In this document: piece by piece, positions 12,666 through 62,995 of the stretch | Position numbering within the stretch: the first letter of the stretch is position 1 | Layout of the letters: the number at the start of each line of letters is the position of its first letter | Assembly (NCBI RefSeq): GCF_000003605.2 | Contig: NW_003121911.1 | Location: 723,951-787,950, forward strand | DNA: 64,000 nt | Reading direction: 5' to 3' | From: Saccoglossus kowalevskii | Lineage: Eukaryota; Hemichordata; Enteropneusta; Harrimaniidae | The notes under the pieces: model-generated | Databases searched by the model: none | Told to the model about the DNA's origin: nothing | What the model saw: the letters and a program-made list of their open reading frames with translations, nothing else | Translations under genes and position numbers: made by a program

Positions 12666-13391
12666 CCCGATATCCTGAAAGATTACTGCGTACCCGGTCA
12701 CACAGAGAAACAAATTGTGTTAAGTGAGTTTAATAAGAGCGATCCGGGACCAACTCTAATTTTATTTATTTATTCAGTCATATTCTACACATCAGGTGGA
12801 ATATTTTGATAAATCATATGTTGATTTTCGTCAAATCAATTTTTAGATAAAAACGCAAATTACATACGTATTTGGTCAAATTATTCAAATTAAGGGAAGT
12901 GCATTCAAACATGGTGAATGTTAATGAATGTTTTTTTTCTTTTTTTTAGTTACATTGTAAGCACCTCCAGTCCATGATGGACTATCAAGTCACGGTTCAA
13001 ATGGCTGCACGACTCCGAGTCGGACAAAGCAGTTTTGGCCCAGGGCGGTTGATGTACGTCTGACAGTGACCGTACGAATGACATATTCTTCCATTAACGT
13101 TTTGCTAATTAATTAATTTCAACTTAAGGTTTGAAGTTCGGTGTTTGACGATTTTTGTCAGAATATTGCTCCTGCGTCACGGTAGTCTCTTATACAGTTC
13201 CATTCAAATATATATTGCGCCATCTACGGACACCCACTGGTTGACAGACAAATGAAATCCCGCTAAATCAAAAAACTCGTTTTTATAATAAGCGTAAGGC
13301 CAAGGGGTTTAGATAAATGTTGTTTTATAGCTGTATAATTATTAATTGAGTTATTTGTTTCCATCATTTGCCGTCAGATGCGTGCTGCACC

Positions 13392-27276: not shown

Positions 27277-30200
27277 CTAACAAGAATCAACACGAGAAAA
27301 CCCACTTCTCTCATTGACCAGAATATCAAATATTTCAACTTCCATCTTGAGCCTCTGTAGGAAGAGCAAAAGTCGATGCACTACCGCTATAGTGAAAGCA
27401 TCTCTTTCAACTGGAATGTCGGTGAATACGGTAACTGGCTGATCAATATCCAGGCCGAAATGTAACAACTAAAAAAAAAGAATTGAAATAATTGATGTTA
27501 TATGACACTGCATTTGCGATATTACCAGTATATAACGTAGAAGACAATCTTCTAATTAGTATTCACTGTACGAAAGAAATTGGTGCATGCGCAGTAGTTG
27601 ACAGTACTGTAAAATGGTTAATTAATCACTGGGTTTTAATTTTGCTCATTTCGCTAACTGGAGAATGCGCTAAATTTAAAACCCAGTGATTATGTAAAAT
27701 TTAGCATAGAACACATTATCTAAATGATAAAACAGTGAATTCAAAAACCACTGAAAATGCCTGAAATGCCAAATCAGTGAAATTTAAGTGAAAATTATTC
27801 ATTTGAGTATATAATATATTTAAAAAAAAAATCAATATCAGACATACAATTGAAATACGTTTCAACAAAACTATATAAGTATACACAATCCGTGGCAGTA
27901 TGCCACATTAGGCAACTAGTTTAGCTCATATATACCTACTGATCAACAATTCAATTTAAAACAAAAATCACATATTAATTCTGGCACTTACAATTTCGTG
28001 ACTTTTAACTTTTACTTTGCCAAGACTTCGGATTATTCCTTCTAGTTCGGCTTGGTAGTCACTGTTCGTCCGAGTAGCCTCCAGTACCGCCACGAACAGA
28101 CTGATATCTCGAACGATGTGCCTCTGTTTTAACTCCCAGTGATGGGACAGGGCAGGACCGTCACATAGTTCCCCCTGTAAAGTATAATGCAATGTATGAG
28201 CGTGATAGAGTGGGAGGCTAACAGTTGTATGTGGCAAATATGGACTGTTAACGACAATTTAATGGGACAGTACGGCTTCGTAAAAACTCAATAATATTAT
28301 ATCATGATTTTAACTGGGAAGATTTTCGCATACCAATCCGTTCCAACGACGACTTGAGGTTGGAATATATTCATCTATAAATCCTCTTTCCAAGTCGCTC
28401 AATGATGTAATTGACTCTGTGTAGTCCATTACCTAGCAAACAAAAGAACAGTGAAATATTGGTGATCAATACATGTTCTACCATTAGGCCACACTGATTT
28501 AATTTTATGGATGACATCCTCTGGAGACCCCAAAACTAATGCGAGAGGGCGAAAAAAAAAATCCTGCCAAAAAAAAATGCTGCTAAAACCACAGGACTAC
28601 GGAGCTGGTATTACGAATTGAACCACAGAACACAGTGTATCGAAAAAACAACAACAAGTCTTTATTTGTAGAATGCACATGTTGATGTACACATCTCGTA
28701 CTGTATTATTGTCACGGGTATAACCATTTCAGACAAGCTCTAGTACATGTAGTCATGATGAAGTACCTTCAGTCAGAAACATTGCATTCAACGTACAGCA
28801 TGAACACCATTTTCAGTACAAGTCAAGGCGGAATGTACATATCACTACTTTATGACAATAACTAACAAAACATTGCAATGATACAGAAATGTCCTTGCTT
28901 GCTCCTCTTTACACAGCTGGGGTTAGCTTTAACTGTGTTGTCAGATGAAATGAAGCCTACATGTTAACACTGCAAATATGTCTAGTGTCCCATGTCTAGG
29001 GATCTCAACCTTAAGTATCAAAAAAAAAAATGATCTCTTGCACTCCTCTACACCCCACACATCGATCTCTTCAACAATAGGTTTTTTCTTCCNNNNNNNN
29101 NNNNNNNNNNNNNNNNNNNNNNNNNNNNNNNNNNNNNNNNNNNNNNNNNNNNNNNNNNNNNNNNNNNNNNNNNNNNNNNNNNNNNNNNNNNNNNNNNNNN
29201 NNNNNNNNNNNNNNNNNNNNNNNNNNNNNNNNNNNNNNNNNNNNNNNNNNNNNNNNNNNNNNNNNNNNNNNNNNNNNNNNNNNNNNNNNNNNNNNNNNNN
29301 NNNNNNNNNNNNNNNNNNNNNNNNNNNNNNNNNNNNNNNNNNNNNNNNNNNNNNNNNNNNNNNNNNNNNNNNNNNNNNNNNNNNNNNNNNNNNNNNNNNN
29401 NNNNNNNNNNNNNNNNNNNNNNNNNATGCTCACGTATTTTGGTGGCGTGGTCGCCATGTTGGAATTCCCGGCAACACAGTACGCATGTGCAGAAGATCAT
29501 TTACGACATAACTGACACGTTTTGAGATAGTCCAAAACGAGTTTTACAAAAAACCGGCGTTTTGAGACAATATGAGTTGGCAAGTTCCAGACTGAAAACC
29601 GATCTGTGGAGACTCATCGTAGGAGATTTTTTTTTTTTTTTTTTTTTTGTTGTTGAGATAATCGATTTGTACAAAATCAGATTGGTCTTGTGACTCGTTT
29701 ATCTAACAGCAAAACCACACATTACAGATTAGCGCCAAGCTGAGACGTAATAGCGATACGCTGTTTCGATTACGTTCAGTGTATTTTTCTATTTTAATCG
29801 TTTAACCCTCTTTGTCAACACCATGTTACGTATCAAATTACCAAATGGATGAAAATAGGCCTGCTTTCTGGACCAACCACATGGTACGCGCCAATGTACC
29901 TGCTATTCATGGCAAAATTACATAGTTTCAAATATGTATATTCGAGAAATAAATCAGATTTGTTGATGTAATAAAGAAATAAAGAAATAAATTTTAACGT
30001 TGATTGCCGTTTTTCCCCGAATAATTTAGAGCACAAAACTGGAATGGCACATTGCTGCAGTGTATAATTCATTTCATATTTCAAGTGCGACCCCCCAATA
30101 TAAAATAAATTGAAAGGTCATAAAAGAATATTTGATCCATGCCGGGTGCGGGGCAAACGTTTTTGCGATATTATGGATTTTCACTAGCTTGGTAAATTAG

Positions 30201-31570
30201 CGAGTGTACTGATCGCATGTTTACTTTGCCATGACTTAGAGTTTTATGATAGAGTTTGTAAGATATTGTAACAGAAGAAGGAGCGAAGAAAGCAGCGAGG
30301 TGTGACCTCAGCTGACGGTTTGGACGATATCAGTAGCGAACTAGTGTGTGTTCCTTTGGCTCGAATCGTGTATCTCTACGTGTAAGTCTTATCAGCCAAG
30401 TGAGACAGAGTTTCCTGTTCACAACATATGGTGGAGAACAGTACAAATATATATTACAAGAATCTTATGAATAGATTGCGTACTAATTGTATTTGGGAGT
30501 GGCAACTTCGAAAGGCTTTAACCGTGAGACACATCCCTGGTAATTATGTGACTTGGAAACACGCTTTTGCACAGTAACATATTTGTAAAATTATATTATT
30601 TATATTTTGTATTTATTTACACTGGTTTTGTAACAGCTCTTTCACCTTCAGTGTTTATCTTTTTCTCTCGATGTGCTATGCTACCAAGTGGATCAAAAGT
30701 GGGCCGGCGACGTTAACAAACAAACGTACCGAATGGGTGAAATCGTCCGTACTTTATTTGGGCTAGAAAGGTGTTAATTTACGCAATAAGGGAGTGCCCA
30801 TTTTATTACAGCATTGTTATGAACATAAGTTAAAATTTCGACTGCGTTTTGTGAGCATTTGTGGAAACTATTTTCAGTGGCATGACAAAATACGACAGGT
30901 TTGGTAATTTAGAACGGATTACATAGTGGATAGAGTTGAAAAATGTGCCGATTAAGGATTAAATTTAGTAATGCAAATGATTATCTCTTATCCATTAACT
31001 CTTTTTGTGAACGTGACCGGTGTATATAAATATATGAAATAACAAATATATCATGAGCATCGAGAGAAATATACTCAGAAATTGCGAAACTCAATACTAC
31101 GCACAATACCCTTCAGAACACTTGCACTTTTGGTTGAGCTTTTCAGTCTTCGAGTTGTTGGAACAAAAAATAGTTTGAATTCGAAAATGTTACGTTGTAA
31201 ATGCCAAATATGTAGTGTTCGATGTACTCACCATGTGCGAGTAAACCTGGTTCGTTAACAATTGTACAGATAACACCTCTTGCCATGCAAAACACGATGC
31301 CGTCGACAAGACAGGAAACGACGACAAAGTTATGCATGAAAAAGCGGCACAGTTAGTTGAGTCCACCGATAGAAATATCACCAGAATACCTGAAATAAAG
31401 AGTAAACATCGCAATATTAGCAGCGAGTATAACTATACTCTTTTAAAATTAAAATTTAAAATTATTTCATTAACTAATGTATGTTGCGAAATCAACTACT
31501 GTACAATGGTTTCCAGTGAAATGAACATGAATACTGACTGACCTATGACAAACAGCGTATCCCGGTTCAT
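27277..31570 (-). CDS. CKL1: predicted secreted four-helix cytokine, IL-6/CNTF type
   Basis: Five exons: 31570-31543, 31389-31232, 28432-28334, 28174-27992, 27468-27277 (219 aa; phases 1,0,0,0). All have GT/AG sites (ATAG|GTCAGT, ATG|GTGAGT, TTG|GTATGC, ATT|GTAAGT). Joining exons 1 and 2 creates a clean leader, MNRDTLFVIGILVIFLSVDS, with Cys23 after it. Helix A is about 35-62. Exon 3 (63-95) carries Ile-Pro where paralogues have Leu-Pro, then RRW. Helix C is about 107-156 (HIVRDISLFVAVLEATR then a second half). The terminal exon has helix D (about 177-208, FTIAVVHRLLLFLQRLK). Length and layout equal LIF/CNTF/CLCF1. It is expected to act outside the cell on a gp130-type receptor (inference). 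Intron 2 is 2.8 kb and contains an assembly gap. Exon 4 with flanks is copied into GST-2. The family call rests on shared exon plan with CKL2-6. Confidence 0.78.
27624..28285. repeat. Source segment of the copy found in GST-2
   Basis: This is the native context, inside CKL1 with exons on both sides. It matches 23659-24320 over 662 bp. It starts at a hairpin formed by AATCACTGGGTTTTAA and TTAAAACCCAGTGATT. Confidence 0.95.
29093..29425. other. Assembly gap (N run)
   Basis: 333 undetermined bases inside CKL1 intron 2. Reading frames running through it are meaningless. A poly-T run (about 29626-29648) lies nearby. Confidence 0.99.
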
Positions 31571-34500
31571 TGTCACTGTTAAGATATATTGGTTATTAAT
31601 CTGACGAATGTTTGTGTGATTCCTCCCACTGCAGTCCTGTTAATACCGAAGATTACATGCATTTTTCTATATTTATACCTTTTTAAGGTGAGAGACGTAC
31701 TTTTCCTTTTTGCGGCATATTTCTAAAATAGCACAAATGTCATGGAATTGACACAAACTTCACAAATACTCCATACATTTAAACAAAAATCCAAGATTTT
31801 GTCGTATTAAATGACGGTCGTACACACCTTAATTTCATCATGACATTCTATGCTATGAATGACCATGTAATTTAATCAAGACGAATATTCAACCCCGACT
31901 TACCGTAAACACACACCAACAATGTGGGCCATATCAGATTATCTTCTGCCTTTTTTCATCTATGGATCGGGTGTCTAAGATGTGGGCATGTGGGAATGAT
32001 AGGGGCGTCACTGTTTTCAATGAAGGTTATAATTTTACACGGTTCTACTCGGAAAAAACGTACCTCGCTATCCCATGTATATAACTTGTTTTGTGAAAGC
32101 AGTAATCAATGTATGAACACCTGTTGTGTATGTAATGTTCAGATCGGTAGTTTCTCAATTAATAAATCAAAAAAATCAACTTTTCAATCAATTTGTTTAT
32201 TTAAATTGACACATAACTTGATGCCAGGCAAAAATGTTAGTATAAAAGTTTGACTATTTCTATGTTTGTTTCTATATTTTTCGATAATTTTGAAGAAAAT
32301 TTACATACTTTACAATGGCTCGATAAAAGTATTACGGATTTTATTTGTTAAACTTAGAGGAGAAAAAAGTAGCATTCAAAATGTTAATGAATAAGAAAGC
32401 CAAAATATCTGTATACATGTATATTTCATCCGCCCATCGACTCTTGCATTGCGAGAGGGCGCTGTTCATGTTATAATCTGTATATTGTAAAACATGTCTT
32501 TTTCGCGGGCATGTCTTTTTACAAATTTAGCTAGAGAACTAATTCGCTAATTTGAGATGTCGCTAATGACTTTATTATAAATTCAAAATGACCAAGGCTT
32601 GAGGATTTGTATACAGTAATCCGGAACATAAAAATCTGGGGCGCTTTCTAATTACACTTGACATTTTTTGTTTGTTTTTATTGAGATGATAACTGCGCAT
32701 TTGTTTTGGTAGGCGACAGACAAGTATTGTGAAAACAGGAGATCAACAAAGACAAGAAAGATTCGCTTAATCAACATCTCGCTATTACATCATTCTACCA
32801 CAATTCACTAAAATAGTATGTCGCCTTTTCAACATGTTTTACAGTAATTCCCATGGCTTCGGACTTATATCATAGATATGACGTACGATATCGTAGGGAA
32901 TTCCCCTTTCTTTTCCCTTCACATGCTGCATAAAAGATTAATAACAAAAATTTATTGATAAAATGTCAGAACCACGCAAAAATAAATGGGATAGTCTGCT
33001 CGGTGATGTTACATGGTTACGTGTTGACTAAATATTATGTCATTTTAAGGCTTGTAAGTAAATTATAGTTCAAGTCTCATACACAGTGTTCACCAGAATA
33101 TCAAACCATTCTTATGCACATTTGTGTCTGCTGCTTTGCTGGGCGGATTGGGTGTGGGTTATATAAACGATTATTAAATTCATTTTTTCTTCAATTGATA
33201 ACTTTTCCCCGAAACCTAGCTTTAACACTGTTTTTGTTTTTAGTAGATTTAGTAAATTTAAAAAATTTAAAATACATAATCCCGTTAATATATATATATA
33301 TATATATTTATCAGCACCTGTACTTGTGACACTCTTTTACCAGCTGTAACAGGATGAAGAGGAACCCATGCCTAAGGTTTGTCTAATGTTCACGATTGAA
33401 GGCCCAACCCAGATGAATTACGCAATGTTTTACACCCAGTTTACTACAATGGACTGTTTGTTGTATATGTCATGTGAGTCCGGCGAGTAAAACTATTTTT
33501 GATACGAATAATGATTGTTATTGTTGATGTAAAATTACAAGCAATTATTATTATGAAAAATGTATGTCTATGACATTATTGTATTGATTAAGTGTTAAAA
33601 CGGTTGTATTTGTAGTTTTATTTTTTTTTTATTGAATCATTTCTGAAATGCAAACGAACTTTCCAAGGAGAAGTTTAGCAGTTTATTAAATTGATTCTGA
33701 AGTTCAAACCAACCTTCCACTGTGACGTTTAGCAAATTACATTAAATACACGAAGCTAACTAATTTCCGGAACGATCATATTTACAGTTTATTAAATGTC
33801 AAAAATAAGTGCAGCACTATAGAACATTTGTCACAGTGACATGATACTTGATATAAAGCATTTTCAACTTTAACATCATTAGTTAAATAGTACTCAACGT
33901 GTTAATAAGTCAATTACTACTCTACCTGAAGCTCAACAACATATGATACACGTATGGGCAAAATATATTTATGGAATAGTAGAACATGACAATATTGTAA
34001 ATATTTTTTGTATTGATTTTTTATAGGCGAACATATTCCCATACTAATGCATGTGTTGATTGGTACAGTGAGTTATTTTCAGGATTGATTGTACCTATCT
34101 GCTTGGGACTGAATACGTGGATTATACGGGGGGTATTACGTTGTAATATGATGGATATTTTCTGAAAAGGCATGATGCCAACGAGTACAACCTCCTGTGT
34201 ATCGCATTCAAATATATCCATGAACTGGCAAATACTATGTCGTTATTGCATAACTTGGAACAGATATGGAACAGATTTACTAACTATTTCTTTTAAAAAC
34301 CTGGCATCATATTTGGGGCGTATGTCCATAAAATCCATATACGTTTTTCTCGCTAATGTGACAATACATTGCAACTGTGATGGTTGGCCGTTTGATTTCA
34401 AGTCAGTGACTATAATTCTTTTATCGATCGCGTATTACATAATTTCTACCTATCTGCGTATCTCTCAAACTTGAACAGAACTTGAGTATATGTCATATAT

Positions 34501-35576
34501 TGCAGCTAGTTTATAACAGTGAGCTAATGGCGCCAGGATGTCCCCCTATCACATGCATGTTGCACTATAATTGCATACACACTACCACTTGGTTATAACT
34601 TAATTTGATATACTACGGTGGGGTATCACTCGTGGAGAGCACGTGTGCTCGACCTTTTCGAAGTACCAGGCATAATTTTCTTGGCTTTGACGTCCACTTT
34701 CACTGCTTTGATCATGCATTGTAGTTTGCCAGTAAGTAATACGTTTATTGTATACTTTTTGTGTTATGTGGTATTGAACTTTACATATTACGAATCTGAT
34801 TGGAGTCTGATTGAATATCATTCTACGATACACATACGTTTGTTAAAATGACTTTAATTCATAACACACTTGGGAATCTCTAGATGATATAGATCAATCA
34901 AAGACATTAAAATATTATTAATTACATAAAATATCAAGGTATTAAATATACTTGACGTAACTTGGTACTGTCGCTTCTGTTCGTGTAACCAATCGCAACA
35001 AAATACAATCACACAAAAAGTATGTACGCTTCAACAAAATGCAGAATGTGTACGAGCTTCCACGTAACTGACATGTCGTTTCGAGGGTACGTTCTTTTTG
35101 GTAAAGGATTTTGCACCACGTCTTTATGGACATATATGAAACAAGATTTGACTCAGAATTCGAAAATTAACACAGCTGGTCGGAACTTTTCAAATTAATT
35201 TTACAATATGGGACAACAATAAGAAATAGCTATTTAAAATATATCCTGTTATGCTGTGAACGATCTAAAATAATTCCGCTAGCTAGCTGAGACAATAGGT
35301 CTCTATAAAATTAAATCAAAAAATATGAATACTTTCGTTTCCAATTATCAATTTGAAAAACACTGTTTAAAATAGTCACCGTTTAAAAAGGAAATATCAA
35401 GGGCATGTGCAAAAGTCTGACTGTAAACATTGTTACTAAGGCAGTGTAGCAATAATATTATTGAAATCTCGCCCGAGGGCCACCTGTACTGCGTAGGAGT
35501 GGCGGCAGCATGAATTATCTATGGCAATTGTAATGGTTGATACATACGCGCATAGCAAAATTGCGAATAATTTCCA
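31571..35576. other. Intergenic, CKL1 to CKL2
   Basis: This AT-rich DNA shows no exon of the CKL plan on the minus strand and no recognisable plus-strand gene. A 109-codon and a 100-codon plus-strand frame (31924, 34172) lack domains and usable splice context. A short AT run lies at about 33285-33307. Confidence 0.55.
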
Positions 35577-37406
35577 CTAGTTTCCTAGTCTTAATATATC
35601 GTTATCGCATCCTTGAAAATGCTCGTGGAAGAGTCCGAAATAGTGTCTTAATTTTGGCAAATATAGTTGAAACTCTGTTAAAAGTACAATAGATTCGACA
35701 AATAATATACTAGTGCTCTTGTCTATTTCGAAGTTATCTAATAGCACTTGCTCTTGCTCTCGTCTGTCTGAAAGCAATTCGCAAAGCATCTCAGCGGATA
35801 GTTCAATGCCTGGTCGTTCAGAATCACTGTAGTTAGTAGCTGCACTGGCATTGCTCACGCTGTCAAGACCAAGTGGGATAGCCATCACATCAGAGTAATC
35901 TGGGGCTTCAGTGTTGTTGCTCACCATTTCATCCGTGTTATAGCAAGTTGTAATCTGTCGACAAGATAAATTACAAACAATTGTTAGACAAAAAAAAATA
36001 CACATGGTTTGCTACATTAATTGTTCATTATATACCTGTATAATAAAAATTGATAACAATTTTAATTTAATATATTTATATTCGTTTTCAATAATTCCAT
36101 ATTATATATGATGATATATGCTAACACAAGAACGTCTTTGGCAAGTATAACTTCAACACAAGCGCAAGCCGATTACATAGTTACATTTTCGATGGGCTGA
36201 CACATCTGATTATTGTACTTGGCGTTGAAATTGAGCGGTAAAATTGTCAATCATGAATTATTACAGATAAATGTAATTTATTAATTTAATTTAGAAATGC
36301 GGTCAATGTCGGGACCGAATCAATTCCATACAAATGAGAGATAAATATCTAAATTGTATTTAAAGAAGAACACAATAGCATCAACAACACAGTATTTAAC
36401 AACACAGTATTGGCCTAATTGCCGGTATCTCTTTTCATTCATTTTAAAAAACAAACAAACAAAAAACTACCGTGTCATGTCGATTGGTAGATAATTCTGT
36501 ATTCCGGTGATTGTATAGGTACATCAGTAATATAGGGTAACCGTTACTACTCACCAGTGACGATACAAAGTGAAGCGTACGACACGTGTGTCTCAATAAT
36601 CCCAAGAAATCGTCGGCAATAGATCGGTTATCGCCAACAACTGATTCGCGCCGCCAAGTATGGAAAAGATGATTGACAAACACGTGCAATGTACTCTGCG
36701 ATTCATATAGCATAGGTTCCCATTCGTTGGATATCTAGAAAGTGAGATATGATCATATATAAGACACACTTCCATTGTTATCACCGTTGATTACTTTCAG
36801 ATAGAAATTGTTATATAAGATAACTCATATGTCTTACCGCCAATTGTTCTACATCCGATCGAGGATGGGATACACGAGGCAGACCCTTGATACGCAGACT
36901 TGTTTCCAGGCTTGCATTTCCAAAACGCACACGTTTCTGTGGGTGAAGAAAAATTATAATATATTTTGTTGAAGTGTATTGATTTTCTCGTCCCTTTCCT
37001 TCAGTTCACATACTATGTTTTGATTGCATATATTCGTAATGTACCTGTAAACTAAACTAAACTAATATAACATTAATTATTAATTATTCAATTAATTAAT
37101 ACTCATTCTGGAATTGTATAAATTAAAATGTTCTGTTACTAATGACATGCTTTGGAATGTCGATATTTCGCGATCTCGTTATTGACACTGAAAAGAACTC
37201 ACGTAATTATTATACGTCTCAGAGATTTCGGCGTGCAACATTTGCGTGGATGTTCTGATTTTCTCGCCGAGTTCCACCACCATGTCATCATCACTCGTAC
37301 GTTCAACATGTTCCATGTGCGATCGCAACCATAGCATATAGGAACTGCTTCCAACGATGTTAAATAACAGACCGACGATGACAAACATACTTCTTTGTGA
37401 GAACAT
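35577..37406 (-). CDS. CKL2: predicted secreted four-helix cytokine with long C-D loop
   Basis: Four exons: 37406-37203, 36936-36838, 36734-36555, 35954-35577 (286 aa; all introns phase 0, strong GTGAGT/GTAAGA donors). Leader and helix A are fused in the first exon. The ATG at 37406 opens MFSQRSMFVIVGLLFNIVGS; a second in-frame ATG at 37388 would also give a leader. Helix A is about 41-68 and includes GEKIRTST, similar to RKIRSDL in CNTF. Exon 2 (69-101) has an Asn-Ala-Ser sequon and the conserved LPR (87-89). Helix C opens ISNEWEPM (Trp106). The last exon has a long polar C-D loop with NNT, NAS and NYS sequons, then helix D (about 239-274, FVESIVLLTEFQLYLPKLRHYF), which lines up with CKL4 and CKL5. 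Exons 2 and 3 (33 and 60 codons) match the CKL1 sizes (33 and 61). Function by family inference only. Confidence 0.78.
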
Positions 37407-41105: not shown

Positions 41106-44100
41106 TTAACATGTTAGTTTCCAACGTTGGAAAAGTGCTTCAAAAAGTTCTAGTCTGAGTTTCAGATTAGAAGTCATTAATTTGAAATCCATTAACGTCA
41201 ATTCATTACGTACTATGTCCATTTCATTTTGTACTTCAGCATTGTCGTCGGAATCACCACCACTTCCCTGATCATTAAAGTAGATATAGCCTTCTTCATT
41301 TTCAGACAAGATTTTTGGGTCTCTCTCAATTACAACGTATTCACCTGGTTCTTTATCTCTGTAATCTTTCTCTTCCCTCTGTACCTCATCCTCATCCTCC
41401 CTCTCGGCATCATAATATCCATCATCACCAACATCATTATCATCACCGCTTCCCTGCTCGCTGATAACACCATCTTCATATTGCCAGTATTGTTCTTCTT
41501 TAACTTCGGTGACGCTATACAATAAAACCTATGAACAACCCATGTCAATAAATAACACTGTTATTTTATCACAATGGTACAACACGTACATGGCATTTCG
41601 TATAAGCAGTTGATGCGCCCGTTTTTATTTTCAAAAATTTCGATTNNNNNNNNNNNNNNNNNNNNNNNNNNNNNNNNNNNNNNNNNNNNNNNNNNNNNNN
41701 NNNNNNNNNNNNNNNNNNNNNNNNNNNNNNNNNNNNNNNNNNNNNNNNNNNNNNNNNNNNNNNNNNNNNNNNNNNNNNNNNNNNNNNNNNNNNNNNNNNN
41801 NNNNNNNNNNNNNNNNNNNNNNNNNNNNNNNNNNNNNNNNNNNNNNNNNNNNNNNNNNNNNNNNNNNNNNNNNNNNNNNNNNNNNNNNNNNNNNNNNNNN
41901 NNNNNNNNNNNNNNNNNNNNNNNNNNNNNNNNNNNNNNNNNNNNNNNNNNNNNNNNNNNNNNNNNNNNNNNNNNNNNNNNNNNNNNNNNNNNNNNNNNNN
42001 NNNNNNNNNNNNNNNNNNNNNNNNNNNNNNNNNNNNNNNNNNNNNNNNNNNNNNNGGTGTTAATTTATGCATAAATTTGAAGTAGTGAAATTTGAGCTGC
42101 TGCCCTACAAAATTGACAACTAGTAGACAGTTTCAAGACGGCGCTTTCTTCATAGTAAACATATGTACCCAATAACCAATTTTGACAGGAAACAGAAGCA
42201 TGGTTTAGAAGCTAATTTGTTTTAAATCACTTTTGACCAAAAAAGCACATTTTTGTGCATATTTCAAATCAAACTACAGTGTCCATAAAAATAAAATATT
42301 AACAAAACTTTAAAATTCATACAATAAGCATTCCGAAAATATAAAGTTTTGTGGACAAGGGAGGTCATCTTGGTTTCGTAATTAACTAATTAAAATACCT
42401 GTCAGGTAAACTGCATCTCTACCTTAAGTGACTTATAGTATCAGGTTATTGCAAGAATGAACGAAGTATACAAAAATGCAGTACGACGATATAGTGTCGA
42501 CCGACGCGTGTATACTTTGCGGGAAATCATTGTCTGTTTGAAGTTAAAATTTAGCAAGACTAAAGACTACATCATCCCGAAAAGCCACTGAAAAGCATTT
42601 TACGAGATTCGTGCTTCTGTCGTTATTTTCGTTGTTAACGTAAATATGACGTACATTTTCCATTTAAGGAAGATGACTCTAAGGCCACACCTTGTTCGTA
42701 GTACATTCGAAAACGACCATAAATTGTTTCTCAACTTTATTATTTACACTGCCAATTGTATAATAAGGCTTGATATCTTACAATTTTTTCAAGAAGCCTC
42801 TCTAGAATCTTCATATAACGAACAATTTTCTTGAGATCACCGATAATCGTTGCCGATATATCGTCATTTTGCCTAATTTCCCACTCAAGTACTTCTTCAA
42901 TGGGTTCCACATAGTGTTGCAATACCACGTAACTTTCTGTTAAGATCTGCATCCACGAATGGCTGTCCTGTATACAAAAACGGAGATTCACAATAATAGC
43001 AGAATCATATAATTGAAAAGTCAGGTGTTTCGTCATCAGTGCCATGCTACGTTTTGACTATCGTTGGTGCAATGTACGCCACTCACAATTCCTGTAAACC
43101 TTTGATTGAAACGGTTTCTAGTGTCGACCTGAATGTCTATTCTACAGTGCCCATATTGATGACCGACTCCATGCGTGGGGAGACCCTTTCAAGTCACACG
43201 CTGATCCCAAATGTTTGTATAGTAACTTTTCAAAGGCACGTACTACTATTGATAGTACGCACTGATTCCATTCATCCAATGACAAGAGGAAGTACTCGGA
43301 ACTGTGTGGACATAATGCCCTCACTGTATCGAATGGACGGTCTTTTATATAATTTTACCTACACTTTCCAATCACCGCACAAAACACCGAACAATCCTTC
43401 AGTGTAAACACACAGTTAACATATATATATATGTATATATATTCATCGCACAAATTAAGTGTACGAGTACTAACCGTGAGTTTCTTGAGAAGCGATCTAG
43501 CGCCAGATAGTTTTGGAAGACGTCTCAATACGAGTTTCTCACTATGGTAATTGCCCAATGTTTTGGCAAATCGTAAGTCCACCTGAAACAAAGATAAACA
43601 CGTATAGTTAGAGTGAATGTAAACTGATCGAGCGGCATGGATAAATATATTCTGAACATAATAAAAACTTACAAATTTCTTGTAGGTGGTATCTGTAAGG
43701 TTCTGTAGCAGTTTCGCTGTTGATGACAAACGACTTTGGCTTTTAAAATCGCATATGATTGCCTTCCATTTCGCAATATCTAACTCAACCATACCAGTTT
43801 CGACTAGATGGAGTTGTTGGTAATGTATAGGACTTGGCCCGGTAACTGTCGGTGCTCCACCAATCATTTCACACCACACGGCAACAAACACAAATACACC
43901 TGTTGGTAAATAATCCTAGAATAATTCAAGCATTCTATAATATAATTTTTGCCATTTTAGCACATTGTATACCCGGTTTACGAAATTACAATTATTATTG
44001 TATATTTTTCATGTTAAAGTCTACTTTAGTTTCTTTTCAAGTTTTTTTAGCAATCAATTTAAGATCGTGACATGTCCCGGAAATATGACAGAAACCAACC

Positions 44101-44310
44101 GTAACACTATCGGAGCACATACAACCCGTGAATGCGGTACTGGTAAACATAACATATTATACTCACAATGGGTCAATAATAGGTGTGCCATTATAGGCTG
44201 GTTCGTTTAGAAATCAATGGACCGTATCTTCACCTACTAAGGTGGAACTGTTAAAATTAGATTATATCTCGCTGTAGGTAGATTCAGTTACCTCTCAGAG
44301 TAATGATCAT
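41106..44310 (-). CDS. CKL3: predicted secreted four-helix cytokine with acidic C-D loop
   Basis: Five exons: 44310-44292 (19 nt), 43899-43673, 43582-43475, 42967-42782, 41528-41106 (320 aa; phases 1,0,0,0). The 19-nt exon MIITLR|G joins VFVFVAVWCEMIGGAPT to make a good leader. A 19-nt coding exon 1 is what I recall for human IL-6. Helix A is about 60-82 (AKLLQNLTDTTYKKF, with an Asn-Leu-Thr sequon; CNTF has DLTALTESYVKH at this point). Exon 3 carries RLPKLSG. Helix C begins DSHSWMQILTESY (Trp123). The last exon has about 100 residues rich in Asp, Glu and Tyr (181-280) before helix D (about 282-316, ELTLMDFKLMTSNLKLRLEL). The acidic stretch is an insertion relative to the other copies. For the last exon I used the acceptor TTCATAG at 41529 because it alone keeps phase 0. 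An assembly gap lies in intron 4. Confidence 0.72.
41646..42055. other. Assembly gap (N run)
   Basis: 410 undetermined bases inside the last intron of CKL3. An extra exon could be hidden here, though the phases join without one. Confidence 0.99.
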
Positions 44311-48368: not shown

Positions 48369-50459
48369 TTAAAACAAACTCTGCATATATTCAAAGTCTT
48401 TTTTTGCACGAGATAGATACTGATGGTAACCATGAAGCACGGACAAATCCCAAACTGCCAAGTCGTTTTCATTCCTGGTAGCAAACCGGGCTTGTAAACT
48501 CACTATTTCGCTGCGATGCACAGAGCTGTAGGCGAAGGGAAGTCCTTCCGATGATCTGATTCGTTCAACCTGCGAAGAAGACATTGTTTAAATTCACTGC
48601 CATGAATTTTATGAAAATACTCCTAGCAAACCGAAATCTACTTTGTGAGAGGCTAGTAGTTGTTTACACTAGCACCGGTGTCTACATTGCTTGTAACAGT
48701 CGCGGTAAAACATGAACACTGAACAGTCCCACCCCCTTATGTCTGTCTGTACATGATAAATAGATTTATGCTTCAACAACCACCAGTGCTAGTAATTGAA
48801 AGCACCATTGAAAGCGCGATAGGGAGTACAAAGATCGGTTCAAATAGCGAGGACAATAGCATCACTATGTTTGTATGCCTCGCCCGGCGGTGTCATTCGT
48901 AAAGTACTGCTAATGCTAGGCTGCAGAAAAAAGAGGTCGTCTTACCAACGCCGTAATGTAATTTGCAACTTGTTGAAGTCTTCCATCCATTTCGCGAATA
49001 TCGTCGACAAATGTCCCATCGTCTGCATGGTTGACTTCTTCGTCGGTGAGTACTTGCACAAGGTGGATACGAATGATTTCCAGATCGTCTCTGTTTGTCT
49101 GTAGCATGTCTAACATCTGAAAGCAGCGATAACATATGAGATGTGAGTACATAACTATTAATTCGTTTACTATTACGTATTACTGACTAAAAATCGATCC
49201 TGTCCAGACAGGTCAAATGGAAGACGTGTCTAAAAATCATTTTGCTCATTATGCATGGGGGAAATGTTATTGAATAAGATGTAACACTCACCGTCATACT
49301 AAACCATTCACTATTTGACCTGGCTGCAGTTGGTAAGTGTGCGAGGGGAGTGACAGCGTCCAGAATTGCATCCCTACTGTGAAGACTAAGCCGTTGACGG
49401 CCCTGTATAGGAGACAAAATATAATTTAATAGAATTTAATCGTGTTATGATTGAACGTACACGCATATAGTTTTTTTTTACCTTTTTCATTTAACCATAA
49501 TAGATTTTGCACTTTAGATTTTGTACAAAAGGTACATTGTTATTTATTCGACGAAGCGCTTCGCTTTCCGAGAATTCGCGATAAATATAGCATGATAGGC
49601 TTTGCCATGGTAACGCTTTATTGAAACCTTTTGTTGAATGTCTAAGGTTGAATTTAGTACATTGACTCATTTAAAATGAACGTGAACATGTAAAGTTCAT
49701 TCTAAAATTAGAAAGTGGAAATAAGACTTTTCCCATCAACCAATCCAAACTATTTATGTTCGGAAAATACGGCAATATTAATGGCTGGAAATATATGTAT
49801 CCAAACCCAAAGGGTTCTTGATTTTGCCGCTCCAATGACAACCACGTAATACCATGTTATAAAACCCACTTACAAATTGATGTAATGCCGTTCTGGATTC
49901 CTCCATCATTATTTTAATATGACCGGTAGTGATTTGCATGATTTCCTCATTCGTCATTCTGTGCACAAAGTCATCTGCTATAATGTCATCAACGCTTCTT
50001 TTCTCAAGCTGTCTAGTGTGACGGGCGTGGAGAGGAGTGGAGCAAACAGCTAAAATCGAAGACAAAACATTAAATTGTATTTCAAAAAAATCTGAGACAA
50101 GAAATCGTACCGTGTACAAATAATGTATGTTATAAAAAGTAAAACTCGTTCTCTGCCTGCAAACGAACATTTGGTCTCTTCTAATGAATTAACTTACAAA
50201 GCAGAATCATGTCGCACATAGGGGTGCATTGCTAGGAACCAGATGAAATTGTGTTCCGAATAGTTGATATAATGGCATTTTGAACAGCAAATGAAATACT
50301 CGGTTTGGCACATTTACAAATTACGCGACAAATGACCGACAAATGAATCCAACGTAAAAAGTGGAAGCGGAAAAGTAGAATTTGGAATCGTGCCTCTGTC
50401 ATCGACCTACCTGTAATCATATATAGCATTACCGTGACTAAAGTTAGTAATAAAGCCAT
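48369..50459 (-). CDS. CKL4: predicted secreted four-helix cytokine, most CNTF-like
   Basis: Five exons: 50459-50411, 50049-49874, 49402-49292, 49116-48946, 48569-48369 (235 aa; phases 1,0,0,0; donors GTAGGT, GTAAGT, GTGAGT, GTAAGA). The leader is MALLLTLVTVMLYMITAVCS. The internal ATG at 50429 would leave a 19-nt exon 1, as in CKL3. A dibasic RQLEKR|S at 29-35 could be a proprotein cleavage site. Helix A is about 37-75. Exon 3 has HLPTAARS and ends SNSEWFSMT (Trp108). Helix C is 113-169. In the terminal exon, residues 208-227 VWDLSVLHGYHQYLSRAKKD align without gaps to LWGLKVLQELSQWTVRSIHD of human CNTF (7 of 20 identical, from memory). The Trp-to-helix-C stretch also aligns gap-free with CNTF. 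This is the cleanest model of the cluster. Confidence 0.82.
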
Positions 50460-53400: not shown

Positions 53401-53636
53401 ATTTGTTAACATGCATATATTCCCTGGGGGTCAACAACAAGTTGTCGCTAATTCGGATGTAGGAACAAATTATCAAGAGAATGCATAGTTGATAACCGAT
53501 GGCACATCCACGCTGCCGTATGTGTTGCTTCTATCCAAAGTTATCGCCGACAATGTCACATAAGTGTTCAATGCCATCGCCCTTTCAAGCAACTTCCGAT
53601 ATTATAATACGCGATCGGATCGATAACTTCATGATA
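50460..53636. other. Intergenic, CKL4 to CKL5
   Basis: AT-rich DNA with no exon of the CKL plan and no frame of note (the longest is 79 codons, without a domain). Nothing recognised. Confidence 0.55.
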
Positions 53637-55487
53637 TTAATGAACATTAGAACAGACATCTGGTGTTACGCAATCAACACAAAGAATTCCGTATTCTCTA
53701 CTGAAACTGCTCAGATACAGCCCTAATTCTTGTAGGAATACACATGATTCTATTGTGTCTTCTTCATCGTCGCCTGAAAAGCTGCCGCTAGCATCCTGAG
53801 TTATTTGCGAAACGCGTGACACCATCTCGCCAATGTCCACTCCTACGACGCAGTTCAGCTGTTAGTCAGAAAAAACAAAACAAAAAAAACAATATAATTA
53901 ACGTAATTCTTAATTGCGTAACTGCATCGTGCTACACGGGACCATGGTGGCCTTTTTAATTTTCATAAAATGATGAAAAGGTATGTTTTTAGTATGTTAG
54001 CGGAATCATTAATTCTATCATCTTCGAAACTATACTTACCAACGATAACAACCCAATCTAGATCACTTAATAGTATGAATGGTTTAGGCCAGGATATATT
54101 TAAATAAACTAATAAATAGAAAAAAAACATAAAACAAGTAACAACCATCACGTGCATTCTAGCTATTAAATACAAAAGCAATACATCCAAAAAAATAATT
54201 CAACGGAATAAATAAATGAATAAATAAATAAATAAAACAAAAGTGTTCAAAGGTTTGACTAACTAATTGCTATGAACTTACCACTGAAGATATCGATCGA
54301 AATAGCCGTCCAATTAGCATATTCATTTGAGTCCACTCGCTGTTTATGTTTGGTTTCACTTCTCCTAAATGCTCGGTGTACAGAAAAACGTCGGTCGCCA
54401 CTGCTATCAAGTTATCTAACAATATTCCTTCCTGGGAAATGTGAGCATCATTAGAAAACAAAAGCATACATATTTGTATTTTCAGAGCGTTGGTGGCAGT
54501 ACTTCGATACTTTCAATTATATTCGGGGTGATGGGAAAAGTTGTTGAGACAAAATTGAAACAATTTAAGTTACGTTAGTGTCACCCTTAATACAGTGTGA
54601 ACAAATAAGACCAATTGTTTCCGTTATGGAAATTTGCAGGATACATTAACGTCTGTTAGATAATGTTGCAAACAAAACAGTCGCGGTGTGTGGTGAAATA
54701 TCGCCATGAAATTAAGCAGATACGCTGTTGCGTGTCTTACATACACGCCAGTTACAATGCGATCGCACCTGGTATATCAGCGGTATTTGGCGCCTTCTCA
54801 TATTCAACAACATTCTTGGAAGATTCAGATGTGTTACGAACCGGAATTCGTCTTGGTCGCATCCCTGTTGATATCAATAAAATATCAGGTTTACAGTTTT
54901 TGACGTTTGACGATGTTGTAAAGATTATTACGTAACACGTCAGCAGCGGTAACAGATCACCGAAACACGTATGCTGGCTGACGTATAAGTAGAAAGCCTA
55001 AGAAAAACAAATGCTACAACAATACCCGGAATTCGTACAATGTTTTCTTGAACTTGCTTCACTTGGAATTGTGCCTCGTATAAATGGCAGATCATGTATT
55101 CATACAGCAGACTCCTTTCGGGGCAGCCACCTGAGGGCGCTGCTTCCAATTGACCAATCGGAGTTGTCGATGCCATGAGAAGACAGCACCAAAACACAGC
55201 AACTGAAAGACAGAGTTGTTGAGAAAAAGTCGTTAGTACAAATATAGATGATGAAGGTCTGTTTAGGATGTGTTAGGAATATAACCATTATTCGCTGGTG
55301 GACAATTGTAACCAGTAACGCGCCGCGTGTTCGATATGGGTTTCCAGTGACGTAAACAACACGTGTAAAATACGCTGTTTGTTTACATACAATTTAAATG
55401 GGCGATGCGCGATACGCGATAATCACCATGTATATACACATAAAACACAAGTATGCTCACTTGGTACTTACATTCCATGAAAAACAT
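53637..55487 (-). CDS. CKL5: predicted secreted four-helix cytokine
   Basis: Five exons: 55487-55472 (16 nt), 55202-55039, 54864-54769, 54431-54282, 53858-53637 (215 aa; phases 1,0,0,0). The 16-nt first exon with donor T|GTAAGT was found by searching for a phase-1 leader start; joined it gives MFFMEFAVFWCCLLMASTTP, a plausible signal peptide, and it is the least certain exon. Helix A is about 35-60, exon 3 has the conserved NLPRML (74-79), helix C is 93-142 (the shortest in the family) and helix D is about 176-201 (TIESCVFLQELGLYLSSFSR). A short acidic run, SGDDEED, precedes helix D. Cysteines at 11, 12, 32, 44, 62, 145, 181, 202, 205 and 211 are not shared with the paralogues. Intron 1 contains a family B repeat piece. 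Confidence 0.74.
55305..55400. mobile_element. Family B element piece in CKL5 intron 1
   Basis: CGCCGCGTGTTCGATATGGG, then GTGACGTA and ACACGTGTAAAATAC, follow the same order as the reverse strand of 2785-2700. The far terminus is not evident. Confidence 0.5.
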
Positions 55488-57903: not shown

Positions 57904-58112
57904 ATTAGAATTGCTAGTTAATTATTTAGGGGATAAATAATAATTTGTTCATAACCTTAGTATTAGTAGCAGGCCTGTAATAAAACAATTAATTTTGTTT
58001 CAAATACTGTAAATTTTAACAATTGGAAACCAGACACGAGAATCATTGCTGAATAGTCAAATTATTAATATAACTGGACAATTAATATAAAGATGCTCTC
58101 AAAATAGATTTT
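57904..58112. repeat. Long inverted repeat, left arm
   Basis: About 209 bp, from ATTAGAATTGCTAGTTAATT to AGATGCTCTCAAAATAGA. Its reverse complement lies at 61107-61290 with high identity and a few small indels. The arm is followed inward by TTTA repeats, as is the other arm. Confidence 0.9.
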
Positions 58113-58384
58113 ATTTATTAATTTATTTTTATTTATTTATTTATACAGATTTTCATTACCAAATTATGTTCCCCAGAGGGTATGTCCATGGAAATATATT
58201 GGAGTTTGGTTGACCGACTCACATTGCCAAGGAAGCGAAGCCTATGTGGTTGCCTGAATACCACCAGCCAATAACAAGGAATGTACATATCATAATTCAA
58301 TTCGTGTAATTCGAAAACATGGGACAATATTTAAGGCATAAAAAACATGTATAGCTATGATACAATACCCGAGACGATCTACTT

Positions 58385-59803
58385 AATCATTCCAACATAT
58401 AAAAAAGGATCCACTGATGACCCGGGGAATTATATAGAGAAATTTCCTTGCTCAGTTTATTTGGTAAAATTTTTACTTCGATACTAAATAGACGGCTGTA
58501 TTTTGGGTAGAAGCACTTGGTAAGATCGATGAAGCACATGCGGGATTCAGGAAAGGTTACTCAACGTTTGGTAACATTTTGATTATGCAGTCAATTATTC
58601 AAAAGTACATTACCAGAAAACGGGGAAAATATTATTGTGCGTTCGTCGATTTTTCGAAGGCCTTTGGCACTGTTGGTGGACAAAGGTCGTGGTATATATG
58701 TGGTATATGTGGTATAGGTTGTGAAAATGAAATGGAATAGAGAAAAAACAAAAGTTGTGATTTTTAAAGCTGGTGGACACTTGTCTAAGAATGAAAAATG
58801 GTTTTATAAACATAACGAAATCGAGGCAGTTTCCTATAAATATCTTGGAATTGTATTTTTTCTTTTAGAGTTCTATGGTCGACAGCAACAAAGGTTTTAG
58901 CACAACAATCCAAAACGACCATGTCTGCCATTATGAAAATAGGTGACAAAACAGGTACCCTAAATTATGATGTATTTTTGTAACTTTTTGACTCCAAGAT
59001 TTTGCCAATTTTAACATATGGTGCTGAAATTTGGGGTTTTGACAGTATGATTGCCTGGAACGAATCCAGTTTTTTGCTTGTAGGTATTACCTTTGTGTCT
59101 CACAAAAATCCCAAACAGTTGTTTATTAGGTGAGTGTGGGAGGTATCCCATTTTTTCTATATACCGCGAAACGCTGTGCAAAATATTGGGCAAATTAATT
59201 AACATGCCCCTTAATAGATATCCCCGCAAATGTTATGATATGCTTTACAGTATAGAAGAGTCTGGAGTTAGAAATAAACATACATGGATTACTGATATAA
59301 AGAATTTGTTGTTTATTTGTAATATGCATAATTGTTGGTACAATCAGGAAGTTAACAATACAAGCACGTTTATGGAAACATTTACTGTTAGATTAAAATG
59401 TACGTTTGAGAAACTCGTGACATATCGCGAATTTAAAACAGCGTTACAGCGCGAAAAATATCTTACTTCGGTCAATATAAACTCCCACAGAAAAAGCTTA
59501 GCAAATTGTCGTTGCTCTTCGCACAGCCAAGGCATCGAAACTGACAGGGGAACTCTTGAGAGAGACCAGCGGCTTTGTAAAGTCTGTGATACAAATCAAA
59601 TTGAAAACGAACACCTTTTAGTATGTCCAATTTATTCCGAATTTCGTCAATTGTATCTTCCAAAATAACTATTTCAACCCTCCATCTTTTCATACATTTG
59701 TAGAATTATTAACTTCACAAGAAACCAATATAATTAAATGTTTGGTTGCCTATGTTTATCACACATTGAAACGTATGGACGATATTGCTGATTTTTGAAC
59801 TTG

Positions 59804-59804
<1 letters not shown>
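58385..59804 (+). mobile_element. Decayed non-LTR retrotransposon (LINE, CR1/L2-like)
   Basis: Fragments of a reverse transcriptase and its C-terminal region in several plus-strand frames: YKKGSTDDP, then AGFRKGYSTFGN, then FVDFSKAFGTVGG (RT motif with the usual Asp changed to Gly), then KYLGIVF and a 191-codon open stretch (59093-59668) ending in a Cys/His-type motif (LCKVCDTNQIENEHLLVCP). The endonuclease part is absent, and the segment that should carry the YxDD active site is deleted at about 58680-58725. There are at least three frame changes. The element is 5'-truncated and dead. It ends at an AT microsatellite. Confidence 0.9.

Positions 59805-59870
<66 letters not shown>
59805..59870. 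repeat. AT dinucleotide microsatellite at LINE 3' end
   Basis: About 33 uninterrupted AT repeats directly after the LINE relic. They may have served as, or grown from, its 3' tail. Confidence 0.97.
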
Positions 59871-59872
<2 letters not shown>

Positions 59873-60930
59873 CACCCGGGACGATCTACCTATAGCTGTG
59901 GTCAAGTAAAATGAATGAGCCCTGGAACTAGCATACAGCGAGTATAGAAATATCGAGCAGTGGCGTAAATTCGCATAATACGATGTGTAATTTCATAGTA
60001 ATGAATGCGTAATCACAAATTAAAATTACATTGGAGCAAGGGACTCCGTGATAAGAGTTGGGAACATAAAAAGGAAAAAAACACATACATTTATTTACCA
60101 AATTTCTAACTCCCCGAAGTATCAGTGACATAAATCCATGTAATATTTTTCATATCAACCCCCCCCCCTACCCTGAGCGGCACATCCATGCACTCAATTT
60201 GACGTCACTAGCCAGTAACCTCCTAGAACGGCAAAACGTAGCTCGTTGTTTAAAATGTGTGAAATATTATGAATCTGAATATTCTCACTATATACAGATA
60301 TGCGTAGCCGTTTTAAAAGATATCGTTGCTTCTAATTCTCCCAACCTCACCGTGCGTGACAACGCAAAAGGATCATTTCACCACTGAATCGTCTCTGCTG
60401 ATGAGCAGTGCGTGAAGACAGCGATAGAACTAGCCAATATTAGTGTAAGTTTAATGAATTTATCGCGGCGCACCAACAAACTTGGACCAATAAGATGAAG
60501 GTGTTGACCACGTACTCAAGACAAACATACGATGTGACACATTGAACTCTATTCAGACTTTTGCCGTGACTGACGGCGTTAATACATGGTATAGTAATTA
60601 GTATGTATAATCCCACGATATAAATCCTAGGTGGGCGCAAAGAATACGAGTGATTATCGCCAATGTTTCGCAACTACCACTAGAATAGCAGGGGAATAGC
60701 ATCAATCTTTGCTATTCGCTCGGATTGATACAAAACTCTGGCGGAAATCACACGAGTCTGAAATAACAAATAAATATATAATGTACTGGAATATAGTTAA
60801 TATAATACCTACACATTATGAAGATTAATAACCAAATATACAAATGAAATCCCAGTTGAATAAAATTTTACAAATATCACAACAGCTATATCCATATACA
60901 TAACCATAAATAAATGTACATGTCAATCAA

Positions 60931-60980
60931 AATAAATAAATAAATAAATAAATAAATTAATAAATAAATTAATTAATTAA

Positions 60981-61047
<67 letters not shown>
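60931..61047. repeat. AAAT tetranucleotide repeat
   Basis: Nearly pure (AAAT)n of about 117 bp with a few AATT interruptions, adjoining the inner edge of the right inverted-repeat arm. Confidence 0.97.
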
Positions 61048-61106
61048 ATTCTCTATTTAATCATTACATTTTATTTAATTACATTTTACATATACTATTT
61101 TATCTA

Positions 61107-61290
61107 AATTCTATTTTGAGAGCATCTTTATATTAATTGTCCAGACTATTCAGCAATGATCCTGTCTGGTTTCCAATTGTTAAAATTTACAGTATTTGAA
61201 ACAAAATGAATTGTTTTATTACAGGCCTGCTACTAATACTAAGGTTATGAAACGTAATTATTACATAAATAATTAACTAGCAATTCTAAT
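61107..61290. repeat. Long inverted repeat, right arm
   Basis: Reverse complement of 57904-58112, e.g. TCTATTTTGAGAGCATCTTT and CAGGCCTGCTACTAATACTA. It is about 25 bp shorter because of small deletions. Confidence 0.9.
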
Positions 61291-61476
61291 TCTTGTACAT
61301 GTTTATTTTATTTTATTTTTTACTAAAACGGTTTAGAAATGGCCGATGAAATCATGTTGAGAGTGTGATTTACACACAAATATATGTATATGTTACATAT
61401 GAAAATGAATTCTAATTTTTTTAAAATGCGTAATACGTCCACATTCTGCCTGGCCTTTTCTTCAGTCGTGACGTCA

Positions 61477-62995
61477 CTAGCTTTTGTGATTATTAGCTTG
61501 TAGGATAAGATATTCTATCATTTGTTTCGCAGAGGGCGTGTACACAGTTGCAAGATGGCGAAGCACGGCTAGCTGTCGTTCGTTGATCAAAGCCAAGTCA
61601 TCGTATGGTAGCATGTCTCCCTCATCGAATGGCGAAATGTCATGGCCAGTCGAAAGAACCTCTCGCTGGTTTATTATCGAAAGCTGAAAGAGTGAAAAGG
61701 TTAGAGTCAATGTGTGGATTCAGTTGACGTCAGATAGTGATTTCGCACTGAAAAGTATAACTTGAAACAGAGTTGCTCATGCACGCATAAATGAACAAGT
61801 GTGGTGGAAATACGTACGCACATATTTCCTAACAACTAGTGTTCGCCCCAGGTGGATGGAGAGTACTCCCATAGTTGGACGGTATACGGGTATACGGGTA
61901 TGCGCCGATGTTTTTACTCCATTTTACGATTTTAGCAAAAGTTAGGACATATTTTTGCGAAAACGCCCTCAACGTCGAAAAGGAAGCATTCCAACCCCAA
62001 ATCCAGATGAGAGTACCCTTCCGGATCGCGCAACAATCACAGAGAATGGAGGGGACATACAACTGAAACACTGATTATTTTACATAACATAAACAAAGCG
62101 TAACGATGCTAACGTAACGATGCTAAGTCACGTAACACTAAACGTAAATACAATAAATTACGCAGTACTTATATAAACAACAACAACTAACACAAAAACA
62201 CGTCTGTACGTGCGACTCCATAAACTTACAAAATCGGGAGCCTCTGTTAGCTGTGATAGAAAACATTACGTAAGAGGTCAATGAAATCAAGCAACATAGC
62301 GAATTAACAAAACTAACCGGAACGGAAATGAACCATCGCAATTCATATAAAGTGACCGGTGCCATAATGTGGTAACATGGTTCAAATGTTTTTGTTTTTC
62401 TTTTAATATTTAGCTGATAACAGATTCAACTTACCACGGAGTTAATGTCCGTTATCGTACGCCTCAATCTCAAAGCAATCTCTTGGAAATCAGTCGCAAA
62501 ATCACCTCCAAGTTGAGCGTTGAAGATCTCGTCCTCGAGAATTAAAACAACAAATACGTGGAACACTTCGAAGTCATTTCTTACCCTCACCAGTAGGTCA
62601 TTATCCTGTTTGCATAACAAAGGAAACTGGTTACTTCGCGGAAAATTTCTGTCTCGTAATGTATGTCTATTTCCTAAGCGGTATGAATTTCAGAACATAA
62701 ACGTCTAAATTTCGAAACAGAGTAAATAAATGAAGTTCGATTGATATGTTCATGTCCTCTGAACATAATGCTTGTCAACGAATGGTAATGTCACGACTAT
62801 AATGTTTATCTGATTGCATACTTAGTCTAATGCAATTCGCGTCATAGAAACGACAATTTCTACCATGCACGGTTTCCAGGTACGACTCACCGATGTCCTC
62901 ATCATCTCTATCCTTGTGAAGGAACGTGGAAGTGTCAGATGCGGGTAGGCACTGATAACTTGGTCAACGTCAATGTCATGGAAACGATTAATTTT
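61477..62995 (-). CDS. CKL6 (partial, last three exons): four-helix cytokine, CNTF-like helix C
   Basis: Three exons found: 62995-62891 (35 codons), 62605-62435 (57 codons) and 61683-61477 (68 codons plus stop). All introns are phase 0 and donors are GTGAGT and GTAAGT. The first has TLPRSF, the Leu-Pro marker of the exon-3 class. The second contains FHVFVVLILEDE, compared with FHVLLARLLEDQ of CNTF helix C (6 of 12 identical, from memory), followed by GGDF where CNTF has EGDF. The terminal exon has helix D (LALINERQLAVLRHLATVYT and on). The leader and helix-A exons were not found between 63000 and 64000 and may lie beyond the right edge, since the equivalent intron varies from 90 bp to 2.8 kb among paralogues. 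No break is seen in the three exons. Confidence 0.76.

Follow-up and report, generated by a model that had tools for sequence, protein, structure and literature searches.

Gene models at the locus

A 64,000-nucleotide stretch of the genome of the acorn worm Saccoglossus kowalevskii (C1465:723951-787950, hereafter the window), read together with the sequence beyond its end, holds a tandem family of genes. On the sequence comparisons presented here, they are likely to encode secreted cytokines that belong to the long-chain class I helical group and, within it, to the gp130 (IL-6/CNTF) type. An earlier sequence-only reading of the window had described a cluster of six such genes with proper splice sites, five of them complete and beginning with a leader peptide. 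Six minus-strand gene models, G6 to G1 in order along the window, have exactly the outer limits that it gave (27277 and 62995), and every modelled splice site is GT/AG. The number six applies to the window only: a complete seventh gene, G7, lies past its end (71433-74348 in window numbering), and an eighth, G8, was found on another contig, C2923. The cluster thus exceeds six genes and extends beyond the window, with at least seven members there and one elsewhere.

The genes share a layout in which each exon corresponds to a segment of the predicted protein. Across G1 to G7, coding exon 1 (4-49 bases) starts the leader, with phase 1 at its end; exon 2 (158-227 bases) completes the leader and encodes helix A, the first, exon 3 (96-111 bases) the loop between helices A and B (AB loop), exon 4 (150-186 bases) helices B and C, and exon 5 (192-423 bases) the CD loop, helix D and the protein end; introns 2 to 4 are in phase 0. 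Five coding exons with phases 1-0-0-0 are present in G2, G3, G4 and G6, four of the five genes complete in the window. In G5 the first two coding exons are fused (204 bases), leaving four exons with phases 0-0-0. The leaders of the five complete window genes are indeed hydrophobic (best nine-residue Kyte-Doolittle mean 2.6-3.5), and hydropathy predicts a leader in all of G1 to G8 (2.5-3.5), exon 1 of G1 being tentative.

All exons of the six window genes are on the minus strand. G1 is without its 5' end in the window because the window ends there; its tentative four-base exon 1 (66072-66075) and its exon 2 (65635-65801) lie beyond, followed inside the window by exons for the AB loop (62891-62995), helices B and C (62435-62605) and the CD loop, helix D and stop (61477-61683). 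In G2, exon 1 (55472-55487, leader start, phase 1 out) is followed by exons for the remaining leader and helix A (55039-55202), the AB loop (54769-54864), helices B and C (54282-54431) and the CD loop, helix D and stop (53637-53858). The same segments occupy, in G3, 50411-50459 (leader), 49874-50049 (leader end and helix A), 49292-49402, 48946-49116 and 48369-48569, and in G4, 44167-44191, 43673-43899, 43475-43582, 42782-42967 and 41106-41528, the last with a long acidic CD loop; an assembly gap (41646-42055) lies in the G4 intron after exon 4. G5 consists of the fused exon for leader and helix A (37203-37406), the AB-loop exon (36838-36936), the exon for helices B and C (36555-36734) and a last exon with a long CD loop, helix D and stop (35577-35954). 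G6 has exons at 31543-31570, 31232-31389, 28334-28432, 27992-28174 and 27277-27468, and the intron leading into exon 3 contains an assembly gap (29093-29425). Helices B and C were assigned by alignment in G1, G2, G4 and G5; the segments of G3 exons 2 to 5 and of G6 exons 2, 4 and 5 were placed from low-confidence structural models.

Two repeats touch these genes. A 664-base segment that includes exon 4 of G6 and its intron flanks (27623-28286) recurs at 23658-24321 with 99.85% identity, the copy adjoining a glutathione S-transferase-like gene; this may be a recent duplication or an assembly artefact. Between G1 and G7 (L001, about 3750-6400) we saw by eye a long tandem array with a unit of about 30 bases.

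Genome searches covered the 572 Mb assembly with G1, G3, G5, G7 and G8 as queries (not G2, G4 or G6). G8 was found with G7, its AB-loop exon matching first (E 3.75); when the locus was read out, five exons like those of the other genes could be recognised, and a search with G8 itself shows that the locus is distinct. Its exons 4 and 5 are out of phase by one base where they join, the gene being otherwise a normal one of five exons, and G8 may therefore be a pseudogene or contain a sequence error. No further copies were found with these queries apart from two weak matches. One, at C2824:546978-547157 with the G3 AB-loop exon (E 0.215), has no convincing further exons in the surrounding 6 kb. 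The other, from the G8 search (E 0.447), lies inside a huge open frame and was taken as chance; that frame (match at C2923:423729-423842) runs to 7,187 residues about 25 kb from G8 and possibly encodes a giant repetitive protein. A ninth gene was not clearly evident in a scan of the window and its flanks with exon profiles (184 kb, 72 kb of it N), where the top-ranking non-member had an E value of 0.035.

Similarity within the family

The G1 and G7 proteins match at 26% over 180 residues (E 9e-14), whereas their coding DNA gives no match (best blastn E 2.5). Because these genes match as proteins and not as coding DNA, the predictions go beyond chance. Coding DNA is without similarity among G1, G3 and G7 generally (best blastn E 0.18), and further protein pairs are linked at E 9e-7 (G1-G3), 1e-5 (G4-G5), 0.003 (G3-G7) and 0.005 (G5-G7).

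For each gene, a profile built from the others was used to rank 3,762 six-frame fragments. In four of eight genes (G1, G3, G7 and G8) the exon for helices B and C ranks above all non-members, in G8 only just (E 0.54 versus 0.55 for the best non-member). The last-helix exon does so in G3, G5, G7 and G8 (again four of eight) and is nearly recovered in G1 and G6, where one and five non-members score better. All eight genes have the same AB-loop proline in the family alignment. We regard G1, G3, G7 and G8 as a conserved core, and G2, G4, G5 and G6 as more diverged copies that position and layout tie to the family, with some sequence links.

Comparison with gp130 cytokines

We compared the eight-gene profile, using HHalign, with a set of eight human gp130 cytokines (CLCF1, CNTF, CT-1, OSM, IL-11, G-CSF, LIF and IL-6). 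The two align colinearly over 170 columns spanning the AB loop and helices B, C and D, with a probability of 85%, a score of 44.0 and a P value of 6e-6, although only 14% of columns are identical. In controls, 59 column shuffles scored 7.8 on average and 12.2 at most, and the reversed profile 14.2. Shuffling blocks of 7, 11 and 22 columns (60 each) gave maxima of 20.4, 18.3 and 25.3, and in no case did any of the 60 reach the observed score.

Six other sets, each run under two alignment settings, gave probabilities of 0.04-2.5%, versus 35-85% for the gp130 set. The nearest was growth hormone and prolactin (GH/PRL), scoring 21.4-21.8 with a probability of 2.2-2.5% (maximum of 20 shuffles, 14.5). 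Five other long-chain hormones scored 10.4-18.9 (0.1-1.0%), EPO/TPO 10.7-10.8 and short-chain cytokines 10.2-11.5. The class II set (IL-10 and interferons), at 11.9-13.3, is not above background (20 shuffles, up to 12.3), and unrelated helical proteins (9.2-10.8) score no higher than shuffles. When each accepted gp130 member was scored singly against the other seven, the values were CLCF1 57, CNTF 49, CT-1 43, OSM 36, IL-11 35, G-CSF 33, LIF 24 and IL-6 19. Because 44.0 falls within this range of 19-57, the acorn-worm family is as recognisable as accepted members, with the advantage that it was scored as a profile and they as single proteins.

The signal is carried by the conserved core, a quartet chosen from the protein-match and leave-one-out results. 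Against all eight cytokines it reaches 92%, with probabilities of 53-95% and scores of 35-55 over nine alignment choices, and against seven cytokines with letters checked in the PDB it reaches 67-84%. The best-matching subgroup is the CNTF/CLCF1/CT-1 branch (80%, score 41). Among 14 human proteins scored with a hidden Markov model (HMM) of the family, CNTF likewise ranks highest (6.8 bits, none of 882 scored shuffles out of 1000 as good), as it did with an earlier family alignment. Shuffles as good numbered 3/568 for CLCF1, 5/564 for IL-11, 11/893 for GH, 24/954 for IL-6, 21/661 for OSM, 30/902 for leptin and 40/945 for apoE; CT-1, LIF, G-CSF, EPO, haemoglobin and ferritin were at chance. The family is thus probably placed within the gp130 cytokines near CNTF, as far as these alignments can tell.

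Intron positions and predicted structures

Intron positions serve as an independent check because the HHalign alignment took no intron data. Mapped onto IL-6, family introns 3 and 4 fall at residues 78 and 128, where we take the human sites to be 79 and 128; on G-CSF they fall at 70 and 120, against sites that we take to be 73 and 122. The offsets from these assumed sites are 0-1 residue for IL-6 and 2-3 for G-CSF. IL-6, G-CSF, GH and PRL genes all have five exons with phases 1-0-0-0, and in IL-6 and G-CSF helices B and C share one exon. The same layout is found in G1 to G4, G6 and G7, and G5 is its fused variant. In addition, the AB-loop proline of the family aligns with prolines of CNTF, G-CSF and IL-11 and lies two residues from that of IL-6.

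AlphaFold models of G3 and G6, both of low confidence, are all-helical; their long helices follow one another as the exon layout predicts, with shorter ones between. The long helices span residues 50-77, 107-136, 147-178 and 211-234 in G3, and 40-65, 102-129, 133-147 and 180-211 in G6. The sequence-only reading had proposed a comparison of predicted structures with four-helix bundles; the models do not contradict such a fold and, at this confidence, do not establish it.

Weighing the assignment

A number of results count against assignment to the gp130 cytokines. Eight query sequences, taken from the seven genes other than G8, matched no Pfam family at E up to 10, and a profile search of the PDB built on all eight genes returned no cytokine. 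Its best matches were sc-apCC-6 chains (E 0.00085 and 0.0059), designed coiled coils by their name and sequence, and a generic helix signal is therefore present in the family profile. In the comparison with human cytokines, a second aligner setting lowered the eight-gene score to 32.5 (35%), removal of CNTF alone to 24-27 and removal of the CNTF branch to 23-30. The four diverged genes, taken alone, carry no gp130 signal (score 18, 0.6%); only G3 (46%) and G8 (22%) exceed 1% as single proteins, and the core quartet stays below 2% against IL-6, IL-11 and G-CSF alone or LIF and OSM alone. Intron 2, in a gapped part of the alignment, is off the human site by 11 residues on IL-6 and 9 on G-CSF. 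The AlphaFold confidence was low for both G3 (predicted local distance difference test, pLDDT, 41; predicted template modelling score, pTM, 0.32) and G6 (37 and 0.22). Genome searches with LIF/OSM, IL6Ra-bind and STAT_bind models and with IL6R and gp130 fragments, which had no working positive control, identified no ligand, receptor or STAT. Finally, the leave-one-out ranking failed to recover the helix B and C exon of G2, G4, G5 and G6 (361, 166, 86 and 450 non-members better) and the last-helix exon of G2 (35 better) and G4 (1333 better).

Because this recovery was poor, G2, G4 and G6 are placed by position and gene layout. For G2, membership rests mainly on these; G4 has in addition its match to G5, and G6 a weak last-helix match. 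The profile comparison with long-chain cytokines that the sequence-only reading called for gave a divided result, with a signal in G1, G3, G7 and G8 and none in the other four alone.

The blank database searches agree with that reading in another respect, as it held that sequence searches seldom find such ligands. Two protein-database searches (5,137 and 5,310 candidates) also gave nothing at E up to 10, and the Pfam LIF_OSM model found no cytokine ligand in the genome. Nine TEF-1 rows in an earlier PDB profile search (E 0.18 to 0.24) were attributed to chance and disappeared with a better alignment. In phmmer searches, CLCF1 chains are missing from the hits of human CNTF, and CNTF chains from those of CLCF1; because these two miss each other, Pfam recognition is not a criterion of membership in the gp130 cytokines.

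The main rival to a gp130 placement puts the family at the stem of the long-chain class I cytokines. The genes would then descend from an early offshoot of the GH, PRL, EPO and IL-6 lineages, equidistant from all, or form a set like the amphioxus growth hormone-like protein (GHl). The five-exon layout with phases 1-0-0-0, common to GH, PRL, IL-6 and G-CSF, would fit such an origin, and GH beats all but 11 of its 893 shuffles in the family HMM. One review describes a GH-like type I helical cytokine in amphioxus together with several divergent ones (PMC9010856). Against this, the profile comparison separates the groups, with GH/PRL at 2.2-2.5% and the five non-gp130 hormones at 0.1-1.0% versus 35-85% for gp130 cytokines, and the core quartet reaches only 0.6% against GH/PRL. 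We therefore consider a position outside the gp130 branch unlikely, while giving it some weight.

Alternatively, the products could be secreted helical proteins peculiar to this lineage, with a role in defence or reproduction for example, and have no kinship with cytokines; their amphipathic helices would then imitate a cytokine profile. The lack of any curated family match, the low-confidence folds and the coiled-coil chains heading the PDB profile search are all compatible with this. However, block shuffles that preserve local helix character never attained the observed score (0/60 each), unrelated helical proteins stayed at shuffle level, and two of three intron positions and the AB-loop proline agree independently, making mimicry quite improbable. 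That the models are chance open frames with splice-like ends, as the lack of any long exon might suggest, is scarcely credible given the G1-G7 match in protein (E 9e-14) and not in DNA, the same exon order at eight loci, and the discovery of G8 through an exon 3 match on another contig, after which five exons could be read. A lineage-expanded set of IL-6/CNTF-type ligands, as first proposed, hence remains the best reading: the gp130 set is preferred over six others, and the gene layout and two of three intron positions agree.

Receptor searches and neighbouring sequences

The IL6Ra-bind match in the genome (E 0.39) falls in a stretch that by eye reads like a ubiquitin-conjugating enzyme gene. 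A gp130 query gave 46 matches, mostly on one contig, the best of which looks by eye like an usherin-type fibronectin-III protein; at the 15 of the 46 given as loci, open frames of at least 90 residues were free of the W[ST]xW[ST] motif. The IL6R query and the STAT_bind model matched nothing, and with no working control we conclude nothing from this.

Elsewhere in the window, the minus strand at 5086-5604 and 7372-7944 carries the homeodomain (E 4e-22) of a gene that looks LBX-like, its probable first exon lying upstream (by eye). Minisatellite-like repeats at 11258-12724 can be read in several frames. Open frames at about 24600-25450 resemble the glutathione S-transferase C-terminal domain; one piece has an E value of 0.0013, below Pfam's cut-off, and a second has no match.

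The mitochondrial contig C4830 (17,037 bases) was read by eye. COX1 and ND6 lie on the opposite strand to the other recognised protein genes and ND2 precedes ND1, a deuterostome-like order with COX1 inverted. ATA stands at usual isoleucine or valine positions, AAA at lysine and AGA at a conserved cytochrome b serine. Echinoderm mitochondria read AAA as asparagine, and those of lancelets and molluscs ATA as methionine; on these codes, the codon use excludes all three groups and fits a hemichordate.

Implications and relation to known systems

Ligands of this kind are already known, so far mainly from vertebrates. One study reports that no such ligand was detected in acorn worms (PMC9010856), and another that such ligands were not found in invertebrates (PMC13203501). 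In searches of the open-access literature we came across no account of hemichordate members, subscription papers and preprints being outside this scope. Receptors have been reported: according to the second study, Saccoglossus has an IL6R-like receptor as well as a JAK-like kinase (PMC13203501), and a third describes one gp130-like receptor in a sea squirt (PMC1963337).

If the assignment is correct, each product would be exported, fold as an up-up-down-down four-helix bundle and join gp130/IL6R-like class I receptor chains on target cells, and receptor assembly would switch on JAK and STAT. Given tandem duplication and strong divergence, the strongly diverged copies may differ in receptor partners, timing or tissue. 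Invertebrate gp130/IL6R-like receptors, as in Saccoglossus and the sea squirt, would gain concrete candidate ligands, and the signalling system would have its origin as far back as the ancestor that hemichordates share with chordates. More tentatively, we suggest that a gp130 ligand system, possibly with a distinct CNTF-like branch, predates the hemichordate/chordate split, and that in hemichordates it could have grown to eight or more ligands, which would be the partners so far missing for their gp130/IL6R-like receptors. The combination of exon layout and profile comparison may also be able to find cytokines that sequence searches miss.

Among known systems, the insect Upd proteins, ligands of Domeless, resemble the acorn-worm family in proposed role, as ligands of a gp130-like receptor, and are likened by role, not by sequence. 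Amphioxus GHl, of 208 residues (PMC9010856), is likewise a type I helical cytokine of an invertebrate deuterostome. Our comparison covered human GH/PRL, with a profile similarity of about 2%. IL-6, G-CSF and IL-11 share the gene structure, with five exons, phases 1-0-0-0 and helices B and C in one exon; they differ in their weak direct profile match (<2%) and in intron 2, off by 9-11 residues. For G-CSF, a published account likewise gives five exons (PMC6389648). The CNTF/CLCF1/CT-1 branch stands apart from the acorn-worm genes in its low identity (14% of columns in the profile alignments). Vertebrate CNTF, CLCF1 and CT-1 genes also have fewer than five exons, whereas the acorn-worm genes keep five. 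This branch is nevertheless the best-matching gp130 subgroup for the core genes, colinear with them through the AB loop and helices B, C and D.

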